Part shown: positions 1 through 9,397 of the stretch, piece after piece
Layout of the letters: the number at the start of each line of letters is the position of its first letter
Position numbering within the stretch: position 1 is the first letter of the stretch
Source: Caryophanales bacterium UBA6768
Lineage (GTDB): Bacteria > Bacillota > Bacilli > Bacillales_D > Amphibacillaceae
Direction: 5' to 3'
DNA: 9,397 bases
NCBI GenBank assembly: GCA_002453315.1
Contig: DKGO01000019.1
Span: forward strand, 1-9,397
The notes under the pieces: model-generated
Database searches by the model: none
What the model was told of the DNA's origin: nothing
The model's input: only the letters and a program-made list of their open reading frames with translations
Made by a program: the position numbers and the translations under genes

Positions 1-66
1 GACATATTACCGCAGGTCTTTTATGAAATTGACTTAAGTGATATATATCTACTGTTATCTATTATA

Positions 67-83
67 CCATTTAATTTAAATGG
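67..83. repeat. Short AT-rich palindrome, possible weak terminator of an upstream gene
   Basis: CCATTTAA and TTAAATGG form a perfect dyad around a single central T. It is followed by TTACTTTT, so it could be a weak terminator for a gene to the left of the window. The base composition is so AT-rich that chance is also plausible. No open reading frame is recognisable in positions 1-66. Confidence 0.25.
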
Positions 84-117
84 TTACTTTTCTAAATTAT
101 AAATTTTATGAAAATGG

Positions 118-145
118 TTTACTTATCTGAATATATATGTATAAT
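118..145 (+). promoter_or_regulatory. Sigma-A type promoter for the serine hydrolase gene
   Basis: A perfect TATAAT -10 box sits at 140-145, and a TTTACT -35 box (4 of 6 matches to TTGACA) sits at 118-123 with a 16-base spacer. Transcription would begin near 152, about 50 bases before the ATG at 202. The surrounding DNA is very AT-rich, which raises the chance of accidental matches, but the perfect -10 at a sensible distance from the gene makes this the best candidate. Confidence 0.5.
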
Positions 146-161
146 CTAATTATATCATATG

Positions 162-183
162 ATACATATCAATTGATATGTAT
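162..183. promoter_or_regulatory. Perfect 22-bp palindrome, candidate operator
   Basis: The arms ATACATATCAA (162-172) and TTGATATGTAT (173-183) are exact reverse complements with no spacer. They lie just downstream of the predicted transcription start and just ahead of the Shine-Dalgarno sequence of the serine hydrolase. A second small palindrome, ATCATATGAT, occupies 154-163 and abuts it. A dyad here is what a dimeric repressor site would look like, and binding would block transcript initiation or early elongation. It could also fold as an RNA hairpin in the leader. No regulator gene is visible in the window, so the cognate protein is unknown. Confidence 0.45.
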
Positions 184-201
184 TGGATTTGGGGTGAATA
201 C

Positions 202-2112
202 ATGAAATTTATAACAAGGTTATTTTTTATCATCTTGATTTTTGGAGGGGTTTTTACTCATTGTGATGAGGTAAGTGCTCAGGAGGAAGGTTTTTCAGAT
301 ATTGAGGATGTCATTGATGAATGGATGACAAATCAAGTGAAGGAGAAGCATATTCCAAACGCAGCAATGACAGTAGTACATAAAGGAGAAATAATTTTTT
401 CTAAAGGATACGGATTTAGCAATTTTGAAAATGAGGAGCCTGTTGATTATGACACTTCACTTTTTCGAATCGGATCAATCTCTAAACTATTTACATGGAC
501 GGCAATCATGCAATTGGTTGAACAAGGACAACTAGATTTGGACACAGATATTAATGAATATTTAGATTTTGATATTCCGGAAGGCCCAAATGACGCTAAT
601 CCAATTACGTTAAGGAACTTATTAACACATACTCCTGGTTTTGAGGATTATTCGGATGCAATCTTTAGGTTAGAAGAGGACAGTTTATTACCACTAGGAC
701 AATATGTACGCAAATATTTACCTGAGCGAGTTTTTCCGCCTGGTGAGGTGATAGCTTATTCAAATTATGGTACTACTCTTGCGGGGTATATTGTCGAACA
801 CATATCGGGAATTGCCTTTGCGGATTATATAGAGAAAAATATTTTCGAACCATTACAAATGGGTAATAGTACATTCGAACAGCCTATTCCGGAAAATTTA
901 AGTGAACAAATGACGCAATCCTATCGATATATTAATGATGAGTTTTTGCCAGCAAAATTTGAATATATGCCAACACCAGCGGGTGCGATGAGCAGTAGTG
1001 CAACTGATATGGCTAAGTTTATGATAGCTATATTGGAGAATGATGAAAGTATTTTAAATTCAGAAACATTTACGGAAATGAAAACAGAGCAATTTACCTC
1101 CCATCCATATTTAGATGGTATGACACTTGGCTTCATTGAAAGGACATTGAACGATGAACGGCTATTGATTCATGGTGGAAGTACGATGCTTTATGACTCG
1201 GGTTTATATTTACTTCCTGATGAGGAATTTGGGATATTCCTGACTTATAGTGGAGAGAGCCATTTAACACATACTAAACTGATCAACAAAGTGATGGATC
1301 ATTATTTTCCTTCCTCTGGAACGGATGAATATGAGCTTTCGCAAGAAATGATGAGTCGGGCGAAGAAATTTACTGGAGAGTATTTTCCAAACAGGAGAAG
1401 CTTCACAACATCTGAGAAGTTTATAAGCCTTCTAAGTGGAACAATCGACATAGGAGTGGATGATGAGGGCTATTTACAGGTAACACATATGGGAAGTACC
1501 AATCGATTTGTTGAAGTAGAAGAAGGTATTTATCGAAATCTACATGAGGAAGAACAATTAGATCCATACGGTGGGTTTGCAACCATTGTTTTTCAAGCAG
1601 ACGACAATGAAGTAATCCATTTATTGACGGATGGACCGATGAGTTATTCAAAGGTCCCATGGTATAGTACGAGTGGATGGACGTTTTTAAGTTTACTGGG
1701 CTCGATTTTAATCGTTATTGGTTCATTATGTTATTGGGGAATAACTGGTTTAATCGGGTTTATAAAAAGCCGTAAAAGCATCCCGAAAAATAAGTTAGCA
1801 TTTTGGAGTAAAATGTCGGCTACGGTATACAGTATAATTACTTTCATATTTATTATTGGCTTTTTATTAAATGGCGAAATGAATCCAATTTATGGATTGC
1901 CGTCTAGTGCTTATACTGTTGAGCCAGCTTGGATGAAAGCCTTTGAAATTGTACCGTATATGATGGGGATTATTAGTATAGTACTATTTGCTTTTTTGAT
2001 ATTAGGTTGGACTAAAAGAATTTCAAAAATTCCAACCCTCATTCATTTTACAATATTTACATTAGCATCCCTGATATTAAGCAGTTTATTTTACTACTGG
2101 AATATTATTTAG
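202..2112 (+). CDS. Secreted, membrane-anchored serine hydrolase of the beta-lactamase / penicillin-binding-protein fold
   Basis: This 636-residue protein belongs to the class C beta-lactamase-related serine hydrolases (Pfam Beta-lactamase family). The active-site motifs are all visible: the SISK tetrad with nucleophile Ser92 and Lys95, the YSN triad starting at Tyr186, and an HGG triad at about 324-326 in the place of KTG. An N-terminal signal peptide (hydrophobic core IILIFGGVF, probable cleavage after SA near residue 27) sends the domain outside the cell. A beta-rich linker region follows at about 390-480. Four hydrophobic segments near residues 494-521, 538-558, 583-603 and 613-633 then anchor the C-terminus in the membrane. 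I chose the ATG at 202 because GGGGTGA lies just ahead of it. The in-frame ATG at 178 has no Shine-Dalgarno sequence and would prefix a charged stretch to the signal peptide. The substrate is not predictable: family members include peptidases, esterases and cell-wall modifying enzymes, and true penicillin hydrolysis should not be assumed. It appears monocistronic. Confidence 0.9.
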   Translation: MKFITRLFFIILIFGGVFTHCDEVSAQEEGFSDIEDVIDEWMTNQVKEKHIPNAAMTVVHKGEIIFSKGYGFSNFENEEPVDYDTSLFRIGSISKLFTWTAIMQLVEQGQLDLDTDINEYLDFDIPEGPNDANPITLRNLLTHTPGFEDYSDAIFRLEEDSLLPLGQYVRKYLPERVFPPGEVIAYSNYGTTLAGYIVEHISGIAFADYIEKNIFEPLQMGNSTFEQPIPENLSEQMTQSYRYINDEFLPAKFEYMPTPAGAMSSSATDMAKFMIAILENDESILNSETFTEMKTEQFTSHPYLDGMTLGFIERTLNDERLLIHGGSTMLYDSGLYLLPDEEFGIFLTYSGESHLTHTKLINKVMDHYFPSSGTDEYELSQEMMSRAKKFTGEYFPNRRSFTTSEKFISLLSGTIDIGVDDEGYLQVTHMGSTNRFVEVEEGIYRNLHEEEQLDPYGGFATIVFQADDNEVIHLLTDGPMSYSKVPWYSTSGWTFLSLLGSILIVIGSLCYWGITGLIGFIKSRKSIPKNKLAFWSKMSATVYSIITFIFIIGFLLNGEMNPIYGLPSSAYTVEPAWMKAFEIVPYMMGIISIVLFAFLILGWTKRISKIPTLIHFTIFTLASLILSSLFYYWNII

Positions 2113-2114
2113 CT

Positions 2115-2193
2115 TGAACTACCCCCACTTAGCAAAGCTTGAAGTGGGGCATTCATCTCCCCCTTCGCTCGCCTAGGGGAGGAAGTTTTCTGC
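2115..2193 (+). mobile_element. IS200/IS605-like element end or palindrome-type MITE remnant
   Basis: Two GC-rich hairpins lie in tandem in otherwise AT-rich DNA, starting directly after the serine hydrolase stop codon. The first pairs CCCCACTT (2123-2130) with AAGTGGGG (2142-2149). It has an inner AGC/GCT stem, a 3-base AAA loop and an unpaired TG on the 3' side. The second pairs CTCCCC (2157-2162) with GGGGAG (2176-2181). Imperfect subterminal hairpins with an extrahelical base are the recognition structures of IS200/IS605 TnpA transposases, and the TTGAACTACCCCCACTT-like text resembles ends of tnpB-bearing elements known to me from Bacillaceae. No tnpA or tnpB coding sequence is present, so this would be a non-autonomous copy or a decayed end. 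The first hairpin may also serve as a transcription stop for the upstream gene. Confidence 0.45.
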
Positions 2194-2213
2194 CAACAAT
2201 ACCGATAAAATTT

Positions 2214-2252
2214 GGTTTCAAATCAAAAATGATTGAGTTGAAACCTTTTTAT
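2214..2252 (+). terminator. Rho-independent terminator
   Basis: GGTTTCAA (2214-2221) pairs with TTGAAACC (2238-2245), and an inner ATCA/TGAT stem extends the hairpin. It is followed directly by TTTTTATTTT. It lies about 100 bases after the serine hydrolase stop, behind the two GC-rich hairpins, and probably ends that transcript before the hepT remnant. Confidence 0.7.
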
Positions 2253-2281
2253 TTTCTTGGTTTAGGAAAGTGTGTTTGGAG

Positions 2282-2700
2282 ATGAATGAGGTTATTTTAA
2301 ATAAAACGGCGACCATTGAAAGGTGTATTAGACGAATAAATGAAGTGTATAAGCAAAACCCGGATAATTTACATAATTATACTAAGCAGGATAGTATAAT
2401 ATTAAATATTCAACGGGCATGTGAGGCAAGTATCAATTTAGCAATGTATATCATTAGTGAACGTAAACTTGGGGTACCAAAAAGTAGTCGTGAGGCATTT
2501 AAGCCTTTACAAGAAGCGGGTTTAATAAATAGCGAATTGGCAGAAAGCCTGATGAGTATGGTAGGCTTTAGAAATATTGCGATACGTGAATACCAAAAAC
2601 TAGAACCATAGGCATATTAAAAACAATTTTGGCAAATCATCTTAATGATTTTAAACAGTTCACAAAGATGATGATTAAATTGGAAAAGTCAAAAGGTTGA
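2282..2700 (+). pseudogene. hepT: Broken HepT-type HEPN toxin gene (DUF86), frameshifted and missing its catalytic His
   Basis: The first 109 codons (2282-2611) match the HepT/DUF86 family: N-terminal helix ILNKTATIERCIRRI, the TKQDSIILNIQRACEA segment, LGVPKSSREAF, and the MVGFRN helix that carries the catalytic motif. Known HepT toxins are HEPN ribonucleases with an R-x4-H-x-Y motif, neutralised by AMPylation by the MntA nucleotidyltransferase. Here the motif reads Arg97-NIAI-Arg102-E-Tyr104, so the catalytic His is Arg (codon CGT, one transition from CAT). The frame then hits TAG at 2609-2611. The missing C-terminal helix, ILKTILANHLNDFKQF..., continues in another frame from about 2611 to the TGA at 2698-2700. 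The gap fits a one-base loss or a two-base gain near 2603-2613. AGGAAAG at 2264-2270 could be the ribosome binding site for the ATG at 2282; a GTG at 2270 is an alternative start. No mntA is seen on either side. Both lesions indicate a dead toxin, unless the frameshift is a sequencing error. Confidence 0.85.
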
Positions 2701-2812
2701 AAAATACAATGTTAAAAACGCAAAAAGGTTAGTAGTCTACGTAAATTGAAGTAGATTACATTAGTAGTAAAGAAAGATATAAAAATAAAATGTCCTTTAA
2801 AATAGAAGTCAA

Positions 2813-2850
2813 AACCCTCGAAATCTTATAGATGGAAGGGTTAAATTTTT
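2813..2850 (+). terminator. Probable Rho-independent terminator after the hepT remnant
   Basis: AACCCT (2813-2818) pairs with AGGGTT (2837-2842). An inner ATCT/AGAT stem is separated from it by a small internal loop, and AAATTTTTATTT follows. It would insulate the downstream operon from transcription coming through hepT. Confidence 0.55.
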
Positions 2851-2913
2851 ATTTAAATGAGGTTTCCAATTAGCAATCTTCCCATAAATTGTCTATGTTT
2901 ATAACTATTAAAT

Positions 2914-2943
2914 GTGTCAACAGCTAAAAACTTTTGTTAGAAT
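2914..2943 (+). promoter_or_regulatory. Extended -10 sigma-A promoter candidate for the three-gene operon
   Basis: TGTTAGAAT at 2935-2943 is an extended -10 (TG, one base, then TAGAAT with 5 of 6 matches). GTGTCA at 2914-2919 gives 4 of 6 matches to the -35 consensus with an 18-base spacer. Transcription would start near 2950 and leave a leader of about 98 bases before the ATG at 3048. Confidence 0.45.
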
Positions 2944-2956
2944 AGATTTAGGTATT

Positions 2957-2986
2957 TTGATTTAGTGTAAATACTTTATGTAAAAT
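2957..2986 (+). promoter_or_regulatory. Second, overlapping promoter candidate for the three-gene operon
   Basis: TTGATT (2957-2962, 4 of 6 matches) and TAAAAT (2981-2986, 5 of 6) are spaced by 18 bases, which would place the transcription start near 2993. It may be an alternative to, or act in tandem with, the candidate at 2914-2943. The region is AT-rich, so only one of the two may be real. Confidence 0.35.
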
Positions 2987-3047
2987 GGTATTGGGAGATG
3001 ATCAAGTAAGGTTCTATACCTAATAAGATAGATTATTAGATGTTATC

Positions 3048-5702
3048 ATGGATAGGTTTCATTTATACATAAAGCGAAACGGGGTGTATCATTTGGTCTA
3101 CGGTCAAATTCATCAAATTGAGGGTGCCCTGAAGGTATTATTTAGGGTTGGGATAAAAACAAATGAGCAATTATATTCATTAACTGAAGAACAGCTACAA
3201 AAAATACCTGGATTAGGTGAAGGGAAAATTAAAGCCATTCAACAGCTACAAAGGGAAAACAGCGATAGAGATGTCTTTCGTATGTTAAGGGCCGATTTCA
3301 TTAAACCAAAAAGAATGATTGGTTTTTTTAATAAATTAAAATTAAATAGTGATAATATTCTAACGAAAAAACTTCATGATATCCAAAAGAGTGAAAAGCT
3401 GACGAAAGGAAAAATTAAGGCATTTTTAGAGTTTAAATTTGAATGTTTACGTCATAAATACAACGACACAAACCCCTCCCCTGATAATAGAGAGCAAGAT
3501 GATACAAATGAACGTTTGGTGGAGCTCTTTTTATTTCCAATGAAACCGTATTTATCTGATGAACAACTAAACTCATTGCAGGGGGAAGTCGACTCATTCA
3601 TTTCGATGATTCGATTTGAAAATGTTGATATCGAACAGTACGGTGAAGAGATTATTGCTGCATTAGATGATGAATATTTTCTTGGTAATCAAGCAAATCA
3701 ATTGATAGAAGATTTGTTGTATCAAATTATTTTTAAACAGAGGAAAGAGATTAATTTATTTCGATTAAAAGAGATACTTCAACCAATCCCGATTGTTGAT
3801 GTAAATCAAATGAATGACTATCTACAGCGTTTATTGAAAGATGGTTTCATAATATATACCCCACATGGACTAAAATATCATAGACCGGGAGTAATGGATT
3901 ACATTCAAAATAACCTTGAGGACTACGGGATTGTTTTTGAACGTTTACAAGGGAAAACTTTAGAAGAAATTGGTCAGGAAAGAAACTTAACGAGAGAGCG
4001 GATAAGGCAATTAGAAAAAAAGGAATCGATAACCATTCCTTATCAAAAAATATCCGAACAGAAATATGTTCCTTTTTTTGTACAATATGATTTATCAGAG
4101 GATGAATTTTGTAAGGTATTCGAATTGAACCAGTCTCAATTCCTTTATTTAAAACTATATAATACTCCTAAAAAACAGGTTGATAAGTTAAGTAAAGAGG
4201 AATTGTTGGAGAGTCAAACCCTCACATTAAAAGAACAGGAAAGACTGTTAGAAATTATAAATAAAGGTTATTTAGTCATAGGAAATCGTAAAATTAAGAA
4301 AAACAAATTATCGATTATTTCTTATTGTGTAGAGTTATATGCAAAAGAAACGATGAAATTAAAAGAGTTTCACCCTTTAGTCATTGAATTTTGTGAGGAA
4401 TATGATCTAGATATGGATTTTTCTTCTATAAGGGCTTTAGAGGGAATATTAGCAAGGGTTGATGCATTATTATGGAAATATGGGAAACAGTTTCGATTTT
4501 ATAATATTGAAAAGGAATTAATTCTTTCTACTTTATCGAATATAAATTTCAATCAATATAATCATTTGGAGATTTCCGCCAGAAGAATATTGGATGACTA
4601 TGATGAAGAGTTTGCTCAAATTGATATTCTTGATGAATATGAAATGCATAATTTGTTGAAGAAATATCAAGGGCACTTACCTAATAAATTGCATTTAAGT
4701 CGGATGCCGTTACTACAAATCGGCAGTCCGAACAGGGAAGAACAATTGCTAGATTTATTAATTGAAAATAGTCCTATCTCAAGGGATGATTTTGCTGAAC
4801 TTTATTCTGAGCGATATGGGATACTCCTCCAAACAGTGAAGGCAAATTATTTATCGATGTTACAAGAATATGAACACGGGGATACTTTAAATGCGAATAC
4901 ACCAATGGTATCGCAAGATGTTATAGAAAAATTAGAAGAAATTTTGATAGAAGAATTTTACTTTAAGGAAGATATTTATACATTATATGCTGAACGTTTT
5001 GGGGAGGAAAGGTTACCAGATTACCTATTTTCACAATTAGGCTATAGAAACTACGCACAATTCATTTTAAAAGATACATATCATAGGGCAGATTTATATT
5101 TTGAGGAAACCTATTTTAATAAAGAAATTTTCGAAGTGACGGATAAACGGATGTTGTATTTGGGTAGTTTCCGAAAAAGGTTATTTGCTTTGCGAGAAAA
5201 TCTTGATGTGTTTGAATATGATGAAAGGGCCTATATTCGATTTGAAAAAATAAATGAGCAGACGGGAATAGAAAAGTCGGATATTATTCGACTAGTACAA
5301 ACTATTTTAGACGAGGTTGGTGACCGTTATTTCACAGTAGATGTCGTACAACCAATTATTGAACGCTCTGCTTTATACAAGCTGGGATTTGACAACATAT
5401 TTTATGAATCTATTTTAAGGGGAAATCAATATTTAAGATTTCAATATATGGCGAATAAGGTTGTCTTTCGCCGCACTAAAGACAAATTTTATATTTCTAA
5501 TTTAGTAGATGAAGTTGTATCAAGATTTAAACGTATTGATATTTATGATTTAATTTTTTATATTGATGAAACGTACTCTGTTTCATTATCAAAAGAAAGT
5601 ATCGTTCAAAGTACGGAAGTAACAGAGCTGTATTATCATCCAGTGATGGAAATGATGTTTCAAGATGTAGAAGAATTTTACGAAATGATGGAGGCGAATT
5701 AA
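3048..5702 (+). CDS. Large putative DNA-binding protein with alpha-CTD-like helix-hairpin-helix and sigma-70 region-4-like HTH
   Basis: This 884-residue soluble protein has no signal peptide or membrane segment. Residues about 27-67 form a helix-hairpin-helix unit (VGIKTNEQLYSLTEEQ, then IPGLGEGKIKAI with PGLGEGK at 54-60). The pattern resembles the RNA polymerase alpha C-terminal domain. Residues about 232-290 look like a winged helix. Residues 302-325 (GKTLEEIGQERNLTRERIRQ...) match sigma-70 region 4, the part of sigma that reads the -35 element. The C-terminal half, from about 565, is mixed helical with a recurring LYxERYG-like motif near 585, 646 and 838, suggesting repeated modules. No nuclease, methylase or ATPase motif was found. 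It is the first gene of an operon with a ParB-like protein and an SNF2-like helicase, so it may recognise DNA or act as a scaffold for them, or regulate the operon. An in-frame stop at 3024 limits upstream extension. The ATG at 3048 lacks a clear Shine-Dalgarno sequence, so the exact start is uncertain. The molecular function is not established. Confidence 0.85.
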   Translation: MDRFHLYIKRNGVYHLVYGQIHQIEGALKVLFRVGIKTNEQLYSLTEEQLQKIPGLGEGKIKAIQQLQRENSDRDVFRMLRADFIKPKRMIGFFNKLKLNSDNILTKKLHDIQKSEKLTKGKIKAFLEFKFECLRHKYNDTNPSPDNREQDDTNERLVELFLFPMKPYLSDEQLNSLQGEVDSFISMIRFENVDIEQYGEEIIAALDDEYFLGNQANQLIEDLLYQIIFKQRKEINLFRLKEILQPIPIVDVNQMNDYLQRLLKDGFIIYTPHGLKYHRPGVMDYIQNNLEDYGIVFERLQGKTLEEIGQERNLTRERIRQLEKKESITIPYQKISEQKYVPFFVQYDLSEDEFCKVFELNQSQFLYLKLYNTPKKQVDKLSKEELLESQTLTLKEQERLLEIINKGYLVIGNRKIKKNKLSIISYCVELYAKETMKLKEFHPLVIEFCEEYDLDMDFSSIRALEGILARVDALLWKYGKQFRFYNIEKELILSTLSNINFNQYNHLEISARRILDDYDEEFAQIDILDEYEMHNLLKKYQGHLPNKLHLSRMPLLQIGSPNREEQLLDLLIENSPISRDDFAELYSERYGILLQTVKANYLSMLQEYEHGDTLNANTPMVSQDVIEKLEEILIEEFYFKEDIYTLYAERFGEERLPDYLFSQLGYRNYAQFILKDTYHRADLYFEETYFNKEIFEVTDKRMLYLGSFRKRLFALRENLDVFEYDERAYIRFEKINEQTGIEKSDIIRLVQTILDEVGDRYFTVDVVQPIIERSALYKLGFDNIFYESILRGNQYLRFQYMANKVVFRRTKDKFYISNLVDEVVSRFKRIDIYDLIFYIDETYSVSLSKESIVQSTEVTELYYHPVMEMMFQDVEEFYEMMEAN
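5690..5694 (+). promoter_or_regulatory. Strong ribosome binding site deciding a TTG start
   Basis: GGAGG lies inside the last codons of the upstream gene, with 8 bases to the TTG at 5703. The spacing is ideal, and no ATG or GTG nearby competes, so TTG is the likely start of the ParB-like gene. Confidence 0.8.
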
Positions 5703-6923
5703 TTGTTATTAAAAGAAGGCATTGCTAACGAAGTGGTGATTCCAACAGAATATACTAGAAAATTGACGATAGATGGTCTTACTAATTCTTATCTTGTGTA
5801 TAAAATAAGATTAGATCAATTATTTTACAATGATCAAAATGACAGAATTGCCACATGGATAAGTAAATATAAGGCTGAGAACAAAATCGATGGCTTTAAT
5901 GTGAATGATGAAGGTTATAACGATATTATTGAGGAATTTATTTATGAAAGTAATCCAAAAGCGATTGAAAAGACAAAAAACAATATTGATTTGGTAGGGC
6001 AACGTGAACCTGGAGTCGTTTTATCAGACGGACGTATTATAGATGGCAATCGTCGTTACACATGTTTAAAAAAAATTCAAGACGAGAAATCTTCAACAAA
6101 TTATTTTGAAGCGGTTATTTTAGACCGTGATATACAACAAAATCAAAAGGAAATTAAATTACTAGAGTTATCTATCCAACATGGGGAAGAAGGTAAAGTA
6201 GATTACAACCCGATTGATAAATTAGTAGGATTGTATAATGATGTCATTAAAAATGAACTAATTACAGTTGAGGAATATCAAAAGACTGTCAATGAATCAA
6301 GGGCATCTATTAATAAAAAAATAGAACAAGCGGAATTAATGGTCGAGTTTTTGGAATTTATGAATGCGTCAGAACAGTTTTATATTGCTCGTGACTTAGA
6401 ATTGGATGGGCCACTAGGTGAAGTACCAGCTATCTTAAAAAAGGCTAAAACAGAAGATGAGAAAGAAGATTTAAAATTAATTATTTTTAGTAATTTAGCG
6501 ATGAAACCACAAGGAGATATAACAAGGTTTGTTCGTAAAATGAAAAAGATTGTAGAATCAGAACATGCCGATGACTTTATCGAGGAACAAATGGACTTTG
6601 TGGAAAAAACAGCTAATAAAATCGAGCAATCTTCCTTCGTTGATTCTAAGTTCATTAATAATGAATTACGTACAGATGAAGATTTAAAGGACAAAATGAA
6701 AGGTTCTATTGAGAAATTTGAAATAAAGTCTAAAAAGGATTCGACTCGCATGAAGCCCATTCAAGATCTACAAAATTGTGGATTGTATATAAATAATATT
6801 GATCAGAGGATAGTGAAGACATTTAATGCAGAGGAAAAAGAAGAAATGATCAATTTAGTTCAGCAATGTCAGGAAGGTCTTAAGGAAATTTTGTCACAAT
6901 TAACAAAGAGTGAATCAGAATGA
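5703..6923 (+). CDS. ParB-like protein (ParB/Srx N-terminal fold), second gene of the operon
   Basis: This 406-residue protein carries a ParB-type N-terminal domain. VVLSDGRIIDGNRR with DGNRR at 114-118 corresponds to the ParB GERR-type box. LELSIQ followed by VDYNPIDKLVGLYND (about 155-180) parallels the ENIQR-(x)-NP(L/I)EEA region. The following segment (EYQKTVNESRASINKKIEQAELM) fits the ParB central helix-turn-helix. In ParB and relatives this domain binds and hydrolyses CTP to form DNA clamps, while other relatives act as nucleases or kinases. Which applies here cannot be read off, and the third CTP-binding box is divergent (SIQ where ENIQR is usual). The C-terminal part is charged, helical and unassigned. 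It begins with TTG directly after the upstream stop and overlaps the helicase gene by 4 bases. No ParA-type ATPase is adjacent, so a partition role is unlikely. A role in DNA loading or sensing with the two neighbours is inferred. Confidence 0.8.
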   Translation: MLLKEGIANEVVIPTEYTRKLTIDGLTNSYLVYKIRLDQLFYNDQNDRIATWISKYKAENKIDGFNVNDEGYNDIIEEFIYESNPKAIEKTKNNIDLVGQREPGVVLSDGRIIDGNRRYTCLKKIQDEKSSTNYFEAVILDRDIQQNQKEIKLLELSIQHGEEGKVDYNPIDKLVGLYNDVIKNELITVEEYQKTVNESRASINKKIEQAELMVEFLEFMNASEQFYIARDLELDGPLGEVPAILKKAKTEDEKEDLKLIIFSNLAMKPQGDITRFVRKMKKIVESEHADDFIEEQMDFVEKTANKIEQSSFVDSKFINNELRTDEDLKDKMKGSIEKFEIKSKKDSTRMKPIQDLQNCGLYINNIDQRIVKTFNAEEKEEMINLVQQCQEGLKEILSQLTKSESE

Positions 6924-8782
6924 CCCAACTGTTACTTACGGAAAATAATAATCTTGCTTTATATGTAGAAGATGAGAATAAATTTAATCAATTAATGAAA
7001 TCGGCAAAATTTAAAATCCGCTTAAGAAGATATGTTGATAAGATAGCGGAAAACAATGTGTTTTTCAAAAGCTCTATCACAATTCATGATATAAAAAAGG
7101 TGAAAAGTGCCATTGTTGCCATTTTCCCAGAGACTGTAATAGATGAGAAAATTGAGGTTTATATTGAAGATAGAAATTATTTTATCCAGTCCCGTTATCG
7201 ATTAGGGAATGATATTAAAAAAAAAGAATTAAAGTTCTCTGAACCATTTGAGGAATTTTCCACCCTCGTCAATCGTCAGATGATTCGTCCATTAACAGAA
7301 GTACAAATGTGGAATGCTTTTTACATGTATGTCATGAGAAATGTGTCAAATTTCTCAGTGCCGGGGTCTGGGAAGACAGCGACAGTACTTGGTACATTTG
7401 CCTATTTAAAAGAAAAAACAGATATTAATAAAATAGTAATGATTGGTCCCAAAAACTCCTTTGGTTCATGGATTTACGAATACAGGTTTTGTTTTGGGTT
7501 AGATTTGGAAAATTATTATTTTAACCTTCATGATAAAGCTTATAATACACCACGAAAAAGACAATTTGCATTACGATTTGATTCCGGTTCGAAAGAATTA
7601 ACATTATTAAATTACGAGTCATTACAATCGTTACAAGAAGTGTTAACAGAGATCATTGATGATAAAGTATTGTTAGTGTTCGATGAAGTGCATAAAATCA
7701 AGAATCCAGCCGGGCAACGGGCTACCGTCGCGTTAGAAGTAAGTAAGGGGGCAGGAGCGATTATTGCATTGACGGGAACACCAATACCTAATTCATATCA
7801 AGATATTTATAATGTGTTGAATATTTTGTATAGAGAAGATTATCGTGATTTCTTCGGTTTTTCAACGCGAGAATTAAAAAATGCTGGTCCAAATGAAATT
7901 TCTAATATTAATGAAAAAATAAGACCATTTTTTTGTCGGATTTCTAAAGAGGATTTGCAAGTTCCCGAAGTAAATGAAGATAAAGTGATGGATATACAAG
8001 CATCAAAACCCGAAGAAGTAATTTTTAAAATTTTATTCCAAGCATACAAAAACAATATGTTTGCATTATTAGTAAGAATTTTGCAATTAGAAAGTAACCC
8101 ACAATTGTTATTGAAAAAAATAAATCAAGACGATTTTAAGGCAATTATCGATGATGAATCGGATTTTTCTGAAGATGTCATGATTCAGGATTACCGTGAA
8201 GATATTGTTCATTATATATCCCAAATTAAAAGGACAACAAAAACCCAAAAGACAATTGAATTGATTAAACAATTGACAGCTGAAAATAAGAAGGTAATTG
8301 TATGGTGTGTTTTTATTGCTTCTATTCGTTTACTTGAGGCAATATGTTCTCAATTAGGTATTAAAGTGAAATGTATTTATGGGGGAGTGCCCCTAGAAGA
8401 AAGGCAACAATTGATTGATGAATTCCGTAAAGGTGAAATTGATGTTCTCATTACTAATCCTCATACCCTTGCTGAATCTGTGTCCTTGCATATGGTTTGT
8501 CATGATGCTATTTATTATGAATATAGTTTTAACTTAGTTCATTTATTACAATCTAAAGATCGAATTCACCGACTAGGGTTACCAAAGGATCAGTATACCC
8601 AGTATTACTTTATGAAAAATAACTATGTTTATAATGAGGAACATGTAAGTATCGATGGACGTATTTATGACCGATTAAAAGAGAAGGAAAATACAATGTT
8701 AGATGCCATTAACAATGATGTGTTAGAACATGTGACATCCTACGAGGAGGATTTGGAATTAATCTTTGAGAATCTTCAATAA
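6920..8782 (+). CDS. SNF2-like superfamily 2 DNA helicase/translocase, third gene of the operon
   Basis: This 620-residue protein is an ATP-driven motor with both RecA-like lobes. The motifs in order are: a Q-motif-like RPLTEVQ just ahead of lobe 1; Walker A VPGSGKT (147-153); Walker B DEVH (255-258); motif III LTGTPIPN (284-291); motif V region LITNPHTLAESVSLH (510-524); and motif VI QSKDRIHRLG (544-553), with the arginine-finger region intact. The N-terminal ~130 residues are unassigned and could bind DNA or partner proteins. A poorly conserved insertion of about 60 residues separates the lobes. SNF2 proteins usually translocate on double-stranded DNA and remodel bound proteins rather than unwind. 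There is no fused nuclease or methylase. The ATG overlaps the previous stop as ATGA, with AGAGTGA upstream as a weak ribosome binding site, pointing to translational coupling. SNF2-like motors are common in restriction-like and defence systems such as DISARM and Zorya, but this one is not a member of those operons. Confidence 0.9.
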   Translation: MTQLLLTENNNLALYVEDENKFNQLMKSAKFKIRLRRYVDKIAENNVFFKSSITIHDIKKVKSAIVAIFPETVIDEKIEVYIEDRNYFIQSRYRLGNDIKKKELKFSEPFEEFSTLVNRQMIRPLTEVQMWNAFYMYVMRNVSNFSVPGSGKTATVLGTFAYLKEKTDINKIVMIGPKNSFGSWIYEYRFCFGLDLENYYFNLHDKAYNTPRKRQFALRFDSGSKELTLLNYESLQSLQEVLTEIIDDKVLLVFDEVHKIKNPAGQRATVALEVSKGAGAIIALTGTPIPNSYQDIYNVLNILYREDYRDFFGFSTRELKNAGPNEISNINEKIRPFFCRISKEDLQVPEVNEDKVMDIQASKPEEVIFKILFQAYKNNMFALLVRILQLESNPQLLLKKINQDDFKAIIDDESDFSEDVMIQDYREDIVHYISQIKRTTKTQKTIELIKQLTAENKKVIVWCVFIASIRLLEAICSQLGIKVKCIYGGVPLEERQQLIDEFRKGEIDVLITNPHTLAESVSLHMVCHDAIYYEYSFNLVHLLQSKDRIHRLGLPKDQYTQYYFMKNNYVYNEEHVSIDGRIYDRLKEKENTMLDAINNDVLEHVTSYEEDLELIFENLQ

Positions 8783-8802
8783 AAAATATAAAAACACCCG
8801 TG

Positions 8803-8821
8803 GTCATGGCAATGACTTTTT
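8803..8821 (+). terminator. Small Rho-independent terminator after the helicase gene
   Basis: GTCAT (8803-8807) and ATGAC (8812-8816) close a GGCA tetraloop and are followed by TTTTT. It lies about 20 bases after the helicase stop codon. The stem is only 5 bp, so read-through to the stronger hairpin at 8847 is likely. Confidence 0.5.
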
Positions 8822-8846
8822 AGTAAAAGGGATTTTGTTAAAAATT

Positions 8847-8888
8847 TGGGCCCTTATGGGGGTGATTCCATCCAAAAGGGCCCATTTT
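8847..8888. terminator. Strong bidirectional terminator between convergent genes
   Basis: TGGGCCCTT (8847-8855) pairs with AAGGGCCCA (8876-8884), with an inner ATGG/CCAT stem. The plus strand continues into TTTTAT. The minus strand continues into AAATTTTT, from 8846 leftward. The hairpin therefore can stop both the operon transcript and the convergent minus-strand gene that ends at 8902. Confidence 0.8.
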
Positions 8889-8901
8889 ATATAGTTATAT
8901 G

Positions 8902-9397
8902 TTATGAATTTTGTTTTTTTCGATACAGAAAATATAGTGTAACACCGATTCCTGCCGCCAAAAGAAAGAATAGAAATACTAATACAACTACGACTATAAT
9001 GATGATTGTTTTTTTAGAAGAATCTTTGTCTGATTGATCATCGGTATCCCCTAGTGCTTCCCTATTAATAGAATTTTCCGAAGTGAATGATTCGTCATCA
9101 TTGCTAGCTAATGTAGCATTACTATCATTTTCCCATTCCCTTTCTTCGGATAACCCATCATTTGATACACTTTCGTCCATATCGTTATTTATAACACTGG
9201 CACTGCCTGGGGGGCTATTGCCTGTCAGTGTACTTTTAGATGATGATCCACTTGGCCCAATATTTCCCGACGGGTGATTGTTATAGCCTGAACCGCCCGA
9301 TGGACTACTCGTGGTTCCCGAGCTTCTAGATGAACTGCTACCTGTTCCTTTGTTATCTGGGGAAAAACCGTTAGACCAAAGGCTACCCGATGAACCG
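8902..9397 (-). CDS. C-terminal part of a Ser/Gly-rich, acidic, membrane-anchored protein (partial)
   Basis: The minus strand stays open from the right window edge to the TAA at 8902-8904, giving 164 visible residues of a longer protein whose start lies outside. From its N-terminal side it shows a low-complexity Ser/Gly/Pro/Asn-rich stretch of about 70 residues (SSSSRSSGTTSPSGGSGY and similar). An acidic Asp/Glu/Ser/Asn-rich stretch of about 55 residues follows, then KK, one long hydrophobic segment (TIIIIVVVVLVFLFFLLAAG...) and a short basic tail ending RKKQNS. This suggests a disordered extracellular linker with a single C-terminal membrane anchor and a cytoplasmic tail, so the missing N-terminal part is probably the functional domain outside the membrane. 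The family is not recognised. An internal Met at 9178-9180 could mimic a start, but the frame is open well beyond it and the composition is continuous. It converges with the operon and shares its terminator. Confidence 0.7.
   Translation of the reverse strand, partial: GSSGSLWSNGFSPDNKGTGSSSSRSSGTTSSPSGGSGYNNHPSGNIGPSGSSSKSTLTGNSPPGSASVINNDMDESVSNDGLSEEREWENDSNATLASNDDESFTSENSINREALGDTDDQSDKDSSKKTIIIIVVVVLVFLFFLLAAGIGVTLYFLYRKKQNS

Follow-up and report, generated by a model that had tools for sequence, protein, structure and literature searches.

Three adjoining genes in a 9,397-nucleotide stretch of DNA from Caryophanales bacterium UBA6768 (contig DKGO01000019.1, positions 1 to 9,397; hereafter the window) belong to families that serve restriction-modification (R-M) loci elsewhere. 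Genes A, B and C encode, in order, a large protein with alpha-CTD- and sigma-like parts, a ParB-like protein and an SNF2 ATPase, and the B-C pair is an accessory module of R-M loci in other genomes. Weighing these relationships, we give about an even chance to the reading that the trio is a stand-alone, R-M-derived ParB-SNF2 module, without methylase or PLD nuclease, that probably blocks foreign DNA by ATP-driven translocation. The observations behind it concern gene structure, folds, motifs, family links, locus contexts, homology of the tail of A, and trees. A preliminary description of the window had proposed a self-contained system of unrecognized composition; relatives of all three proteins prove to be parts of R-M loci and, given these relatives and the PLD region on many relatives of C, the composition resembles a pared-down version of a larger assembly.

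The genes are long open frames on the forward strand: A at 3048-5702 (884 amino acids), B at 5703-6923 (406 amino acids, from a TTG start) and C at 6920-8782 (620 amino acids). They are joined as first described, with the TAA of A (5700-5702) abutting the TTG of B, and B overlapping C in an ATGA; B and its homologues share approximately the same starting residue. Beyond the trio and an open reading frame (ORF) at 178-2112, every ORF listed for the window has at most 126 amino acids. At E ≤ 1e-3, and with the window's own proteins included, A has at least 108 database homologues, B at least 3296 and C at least 1971, numbers far above chance.

Besides the stand-alone trio, B and C occur in two main contexts, in which most flanking genes were classified from annotation. 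The first is the type III operon, where all five loci read have the order mod-res-B-C (L094, L095, L096, L101 and L025, the last with C in two pieces). Such operons, exemplified by E. faecium p1818-a, L. reuteri p53608_1, L. lactis pIBB109_AgSa_3 and L. paracasei N1115, carry homologous, directly joined B and C genes and, like the window, an SNF2 motor without PLD; unlike the window they have Mod and Res, and A was not found in the stretches scanned. One L. paracasei plasmid record (L101, 1-8755) has four listed genes only, mod-res-B-C, with no replication gene in PLSDB's incomplete table.

The second context is the C5-methylase locus, in which the methylase accompanies a C protein long enough to include PLD. 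This was seen in eight of nine such loci read: two Exiguobacterium records, two Priestia records, L. plantarum, L. argentoratensis and genomes G343 and G629; the ninth is the 9.7 kb contig of G007, which shows no methylase. Assignment of the methylase rests on Pfam in G343, on a closely similar ORF start in G629 and on annotation elsewhere. Four of these R-M loci (G343, G629 and the two Exiguobacterium plasmids) also include A and thus have homologues of all three window proteins, in A-B-C order in G343 and G629. They differ from the window in their C5-methylase, in a Sau3AI-like enzyme (G343 and G629) and in a C protein with PLD, the motif having been examined for G343, G629 and one Exiguobacterium. 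The Exiguobacterium A is separated from B-C by 7-10 kb, and in Exiguobacterium sp. Helios it stands directly 3' of C5-methylase and Vsr genes, a placement that supports A as part of an R-M locus. A third kind of arrangement appears in G146, where a B-like protein is fused to a Swt1-like HEPN domain (PF18731; L091, 9346-11463) beside two C5-methylase-like ORFs, one of them verified by Pfam; the grouping into these kinds leaves out L027. This fusion may represent a suicide-RNase branch of the family, and HEPN-ParB fusions as such are already known (PMC3710099; this and the other papers cited are drawn on in excerpt).

The tail of A provides a further tie to restriction enzymes. In the Priestia locus L023, a 519-amino-acid protein annotated as 'MutH/Sau3AI family' matches MutH within its first half (Pfam E 3.3e-6) and shares homology with residues 602-813 of A in the second (BLASTP E 3e-11). 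A profile of A residues 600-884 (4845-5699, forward strand), built without the Priestia protein, scores it at 147.8 bits (hmmsearch E 3.2e-44), and among the loci scanned it is the sole non-A ORF matched. Alignment shows that L088, L090 and L097 encode complete Sau3AI-like proteins, whose front half contains ExK, and that the L023 protein and a 247-amino-acid protein of L024 lack the catalytic half of Sau3AI and share with it the second MutH-like domain alone. In Sau3AI itself, that second MutH-like domain is the effector domain. From these alignments we infer that the tail of A is a docking module linking different DNA-reading parts to the B-C machine, A being one such part.

The rest of A has candidate DNA-reading parts. 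Residues ~28-65 form an alpha-CTD-like helix-hairpin-helix, degenerate in the window copy; residues 214-280 are a winged helix, with additional small helical or winged units elsewhere; and residues 300-325 (3945-4022, forward strand) are a sigma-70 region 4.2-like helix-turn-helix containing RERIRQ. The sigma part passes its Pfam cut-off (26.3 against 24.1 bits) and the alpha-CTD part fails it (16.2 against 23.8 bits), but a family profile of A recovers both (E 7.1e-10 and 1.5e-10, respectively), so the alpha-CTD-like assignment is still supported, and the label 'alpha-CTD/sigma-4-like' first given to this protein stands. Four residues, E532, H534, N535 and R552, are invariant in 12 aligned sequences and could form an active site or an interface.

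These features raise the prospect of a transcription-level device, in which A mimics sigma or alpha and binds -35-like DNA or polymerase while C clears or stalls transcription complexes, in the manner of RapA or Mot1. RER[IV]RQ is kept in 19 of 19 aligned A sequences at a mean column identity of 31%, which would fit the reading of -35-like DNA, and the helix matches RpoD/SigA structures. However, the motif may be retained for the fold alone, one of 12 sequences in a separate alignment has RQRASQ in its place (L088; the other 11 keep RER[IV]RQ), the alpha-CTD part of the window copy is degenerate, and the R-M contexts speak for action on DNA generally. We regard such a device as improbable.

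Protein B has the ParB N-domain and helix-turn-helix fold of the ParB superfamily, with a DGNRR (GxRR-type) box and a helical C-terminal extension beyond that fold. Fold comparison places it near ParB and Noc; every ParB model in Pfam fell under its cut-off and a PDB sequence search with the B profile returned nothing useful, so the earlier 'ParB-like' designation is upheld by fold. Protein C is an SNF2 ATPase (PF00176, 56.6 bits against a cut-off of 24.9) whose Walker A (GSGKT), DEVH and motif VI are intact, and the SNF2 motifs are present in 17 of 17 aligned C proteins. Seven of these are of the PLD type and all seven have its HxK motif (L022, L023, L024, L088, L090, L092 and L097); PLD status in L098 and L107 was judged from length. 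The remaining 10, two of which have an HxK inside the SNF2 part, lack the PLD region, the window C included. Neither Pfam nor NCBIfam places a nuclease family in A, B or C at cut-off, and NCBIfam has no model of any kind at cut-off for the three. Nor did a hidden nuclease in A stand out among the matches listed, one of these comparisons covering mainly residues 214-279; the four invariant residues noted above leave room for one. The initial remark that no nuclease motif is visible thus holds for the window copy, by Pfam scan and by alignment of C.

Restriction by cleavage is an alternative that we consider unlikely. Here B would cut, or the trio would mark and move on foreign DNA and recruit a nuclease encoded elsewhere, for instance one of the host, a PLD protein or the enzyme of an unlinked R-M system. 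The endoDNase families of R-M systems listed in PMC3710099 include ParB-like domains, and PMC12839542 cites nicking of DNA by members of the ParB/Srx superfamily. PLD-bearing C proteins fall in the same clade as the window C, the type III relatives without PLD adjoin Res, a trio in E. lactis sits between hsdMSR and a pair of genes related to McrB/McrC, and a DnaQ-type exonuclease gene (PF00929 with DUF1351; 5769-7106) lies upstream of A in the clostridial locus L001. Yet no nuclease gene is a constant neighbor of stand-alone trios, and none was recognized among the part of the flanking ORFs scanned in L002, L005 and L006.

The trio recurs in Bacilli and Clostridia. A, B and C share order and strand in three Clostridia (L001, L002, L003) and five Enterococcus plasmids (L005, L006, L100, L026, L099); L088 and L090 have the same arrangement, their C being larger and equipped with a PLD. 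In G007, B shares a contig with a PLD-bearing C, and A is on another. Among 398 genomes of one phylum the B profile matched seven, at full length in G007, G343 and G146, decayed in G004, and weakly or in part in G193, G239 and G284. A exceeded 100 bits in at least four of 398 (G007, G030, G343 and G004), a lower bound because two candidates were scored per genome and these were mostly rpoA or rpoD; three of the four also have B (G343, G007 on separate contigs, and G004 in decayed form). B is present in one of 73 genomes of the order of G007 and one of 82 of its class, G007 itself both times, and in two of 189 of the order of G343 (G343 and G629).

On Enterococcus plasmids, all 46 records with a close B (E ≤ 1e-40) also match A when the two lists are compared by eye, the match in LR962392 being a fragment only, and B occurs in 46 of the 49 records with A, the other three having a truncated A and no B. 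Any B at all is found in 52 records; six with a distant B are not among the A records, and those of the six that were read (L025, L094) are type III. The possibility, raised in the preliminary description, that the genes are rarely found together is thus not borne out, and the proximity to known defense genes that it asked about is seen in the E. lactis trio. A phage origin was rejected: viral contigs held no relative of B in the B alignment search, the three viral relatives of C are distant (24-29% identity), and B matches four phage records only in part.

This plasmid setting bears on another alternative, that the ParB-like protein serves maintenance of a plasmid or element through partition, incompatibility or exclusion of rival plasmids. 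In its favor, all but three of the 51 A-carrying plasmid records (48) are classed as conjugative or mobilizable; an Exiguobacterium plasmid (L022, 6735-9755) has two genes of the ParA family, one for a DUF3102 protein and one for a ribbon-helix-helix protein immediately before B, with a similar set in L098; and ParB/Srx proteins can act in plasmid conflict, to judge by a title cited in PMC10853773 and PMC12839542. But the Enterococcus trios read have no annotated ParA-family gene next to B, and an SNF2 motor and R-M contexts misfit partition, making this explanation quite improbable in our view.

Maximum-likelihood trees of B and C place these loci in relation to one another. In the C tree the loci in which A adjoins B-C, G007 and the decayed L004 form one clade of 11 rows (support 100/100); the corresponding B clade, also of 11 rows (98/96), holds the HEPN fusion and not L004, which was included in the C tree only. 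The window and Enterococcus make up one subclade (100/100) in which every C lacks PLD. Beside it stand G007, G343 and G629, with PLD, and L001-L003, without; the nearest outgroup C proteins are of PLD size, and type III B and C sit on another branch. The PLD-size outgroups and PLD-bearing neighbors make loss of PLD in the stand-alone trios the simpler reading, with several deep forks uncertain and long branches in L097, L024 and the HEPN fusion.

Another alternative is that the trio is a remnant of an R-M system with no function of its own. Methylase and PLD are absent from the window copy, a decayed copy exists in L004 (a short fragment of A, B in pieces and a C of 502 amino acids), and the three Enterococcus plasmids with truncated A have no B. 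Against this, the window, Enterococcus and clostridial copies have three long open frames with conserved motifs, and the identities of 67-80% between B and its five closest aligned relatives are unlike neutral decay. We judge the remnant explanation very improbable.

The stand-alone, translocation-driven module that we favor could work as follows. A, the DNA-reading front end, would recognize DNA via its sigma 4.2-like helix and winged helices and use its C-terminal module to dock onto the motor complex. B would be a ParB-fold, clamp-like protein, perhaps using nucleotide, that loads at or near the site, and C the SNF2 motor that moves along double-stranded DNA, the three presumably forming a complex with a role in defense. 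Among relatives, recognition would fall to type III Mod-Res or to a Sau3AI/MutH protein, and cutting to Res, Sau3AI or the PLD on C. In the window trio, replication, transcription or establishment of foreign DNA would instead be blocked by ATP-driven binding and translocation, and the DNA would not be cut. We favor blocking over cutting because the window copy lacks a methylase (none of six window ORFs scanned with Pfam is a DNA methyltransferase; relatives do carry one) and has no recognizable nuclease. By analogy, PbeABCD offers a precedent for blocking without cutting: it is reported to stop viral DNA from replicating with no visible cleavage (PMC6459918), but PMC10853773 disputes that reading.

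Several observations weigh against this proposal. Self-protection without a methylase has no explanation, and the window is part of a 13,680-base record, so that a methylase or nuclease may neighbor the trio beyond it. The box II of ParB has the form ENxQR, from which that of B, ELxIQxGxE, departs. The ParA-family and ribbon-helix-helix genes before the Exiguobacterium B hint at partition, and the clostridial trio of L001 has the DnaQ-type exonuclease gene upstream. Linkage is imperfect, in that G030 has A with no B or C nearby; a homologue of A at L089 (7207-9795) has neither B nor C within the 18 kb read, and its final residues fail to align to the conserved end of the tail. Although they have A, the Exiguobacterium loci fall outside the A clade, beside Priestia, so the link of A to B-C may predate that clade. 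The Enterococcus plasmid copies are mostly near-identical (E. faecalis), and independent lineages are therefore few. We found no experiment on any family member in the literature, and B may itself be a nuclease, by analogy with the endoDNase class noted above (PMC3710099).

The trio was also compared with named systems. PADLOC models gave no match for A or B and generic helicase matches for C, and neither PADLOC nor NCBIfam scans assign the genes to Zorya, DISARM, Dpd, Pbe or MZA, a kind of match that the preliminary description had allowed for. Zorya, DISARM and Dpd have an SNF2-family motor in common with the window, and C generically matches the ZorD, DrmD and DpdE models. Zorya was rejected since C matches ZorD over the helicase part only and A, B and the HepT-like ORF of the window match no Zor model; DISARM, since C alone of these four ORFs matches, again over the helicase part (DrmD and one weak DrmA); and Dpd, since C matches DpdE and DpdF over the helicase part only and A, B and the HepT-like ORF match no Dpd model. 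For MZA the likeness is a sigma-like helix in a defense-linked protein, and the match of A to MzaA covers 25 residues at 19.8 bits against a cut-off of 800.

Membership of PbeABCD, a CxC ABC-ATPase system, was likewise rejected. PbeA is a PLD-helicase whose likeness is to the PLD of the G343 C protein (L088; E 3.4e-62 to PbeA models), the window C has no PLD, and PADLOC matched none of PbeB-D in the four ORFs scanned; Pfam found no ABC-ATPase or DndE homologue among six window ORFs. SauUSI, NgoAVII and CglI restrict DNA in an ATP-dependent manner with a PLD nuclease and SF2 motor (PMC7913695, PMC4267653 and PMC5737866). They resemble the PLD-bearing relatives of C, but have other accessory domains, with no ParB protein mentioned in the excerpt of PMC7913695, and the window copy lacks PLD. 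SNF2 motors, cytosine methylases, Vsr and MORC-type ATPases occur together in R-M operons (PMC2292703); these operons and the R-M-linked HEPN-ParB fusions (PMC3710099) also bring SNF2 or ParB-like proteins into neighborhoods with cytosine methylases and Vsr. In the excerpts, neither source describes the ParB-SNF2 pair of the window or an A-like protein, and a ParB clamp in place of MORC is our analogy. Among the open-access matches listed, we found no description of the trio or of a ParB-SNF2 pair in R-M loci; excerpts of PMC10952713 and PMC13190303 held nothing further on the trio.

A bolder form of the proposal is rather unlikely as a whole. In it, a modification-free, nuclease-free defense derived from R-M would use its sigma-type helix to read -35-like promoter DNA and load a ParB clamp and SNF2 motor; translocation alone would shut the DNA down, and type III, Sau3AI-type and sigma-like parts would exchange places as the recognition unit of one ParB-SNF2 core. 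Shared by type III operons, C5-methylase/Sau3AI loci and the methylase-free trio, a ParB-SNF2 core would amount to a general accessory engine, as yet unnamed, for restriction systems. Since the A family is common (one protein cluster stands for 778 contigs, and 49 Enterococcus plasmid records carry it), such an engine could influence the spread of plasmids and resistance to phages in Bacillota. The trio also lends itself to a clear-cut test of whether a motor and clamp together can exclude foreign DNA without cutting or marking it, the same question left in dispute by the work on PbeABCD (PMC6459918 versus PMC10853773).

Other genes lie near relatives of the trio. In the Exiguobacterium locus L105, an AspBHI-N/HNH protein (14563-15675) adjoins the C5-methylase and Vsr. 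An ORF for an SMC_N-type ATPase of 1050 amino acids follows B and the PLD-bearing C in G007 (L092, 4982-8134), and in L001 the end of C overlaps with a VWA-like DUF2201 gene (13068-14414). Upstream of the clostridial trio in L002, an ORF at 3949-6249 resembles a mobilization relaxase, a candidate by eye alone, and a Peptidase_S24/HTH regulator gene (PF00717) lies between it and the trio.

Within the window itself, scans with Rfam and for tRNAs gave nothing useful. Promoter-like matches are at chance level (47 observed, 47.8 expected), which lends no support to the promoter region once ascribed to the trio. Terminators had been described on both sides, which is confirmed in part: 3' of C folding reveals a strong hairpin (8847-8884, forward strand, z -2.99), and upstream of A the hairpin at 2813-2842 is weak (z -1.21); a consensus scan called neither. 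The ORF at 178-2112 encodes a serine beta-lactamase-like or PBP-like protein (PF00144, 193.9 bits) that has hydrophobic segments toward its C-terminus and scores far under the cut-offs of the listed NCBIfam beta-lactamase models. The 'dead toxin' of the preliminary description corresponds to a HepT-family ORF at 2270-2611 (NF047751, 132.7 bits), which looks inactive because the His of the family's RX4HXY motif is out of place; its match ends at model position 102 of 120, having begun at position 1. Between this ORF and its neighbors, the window ORF list has no ORF of 60 amino acids or more. Downstream of C, on the reverse strand, lies a small ORF with a hydrophobic segment (8902-9180).

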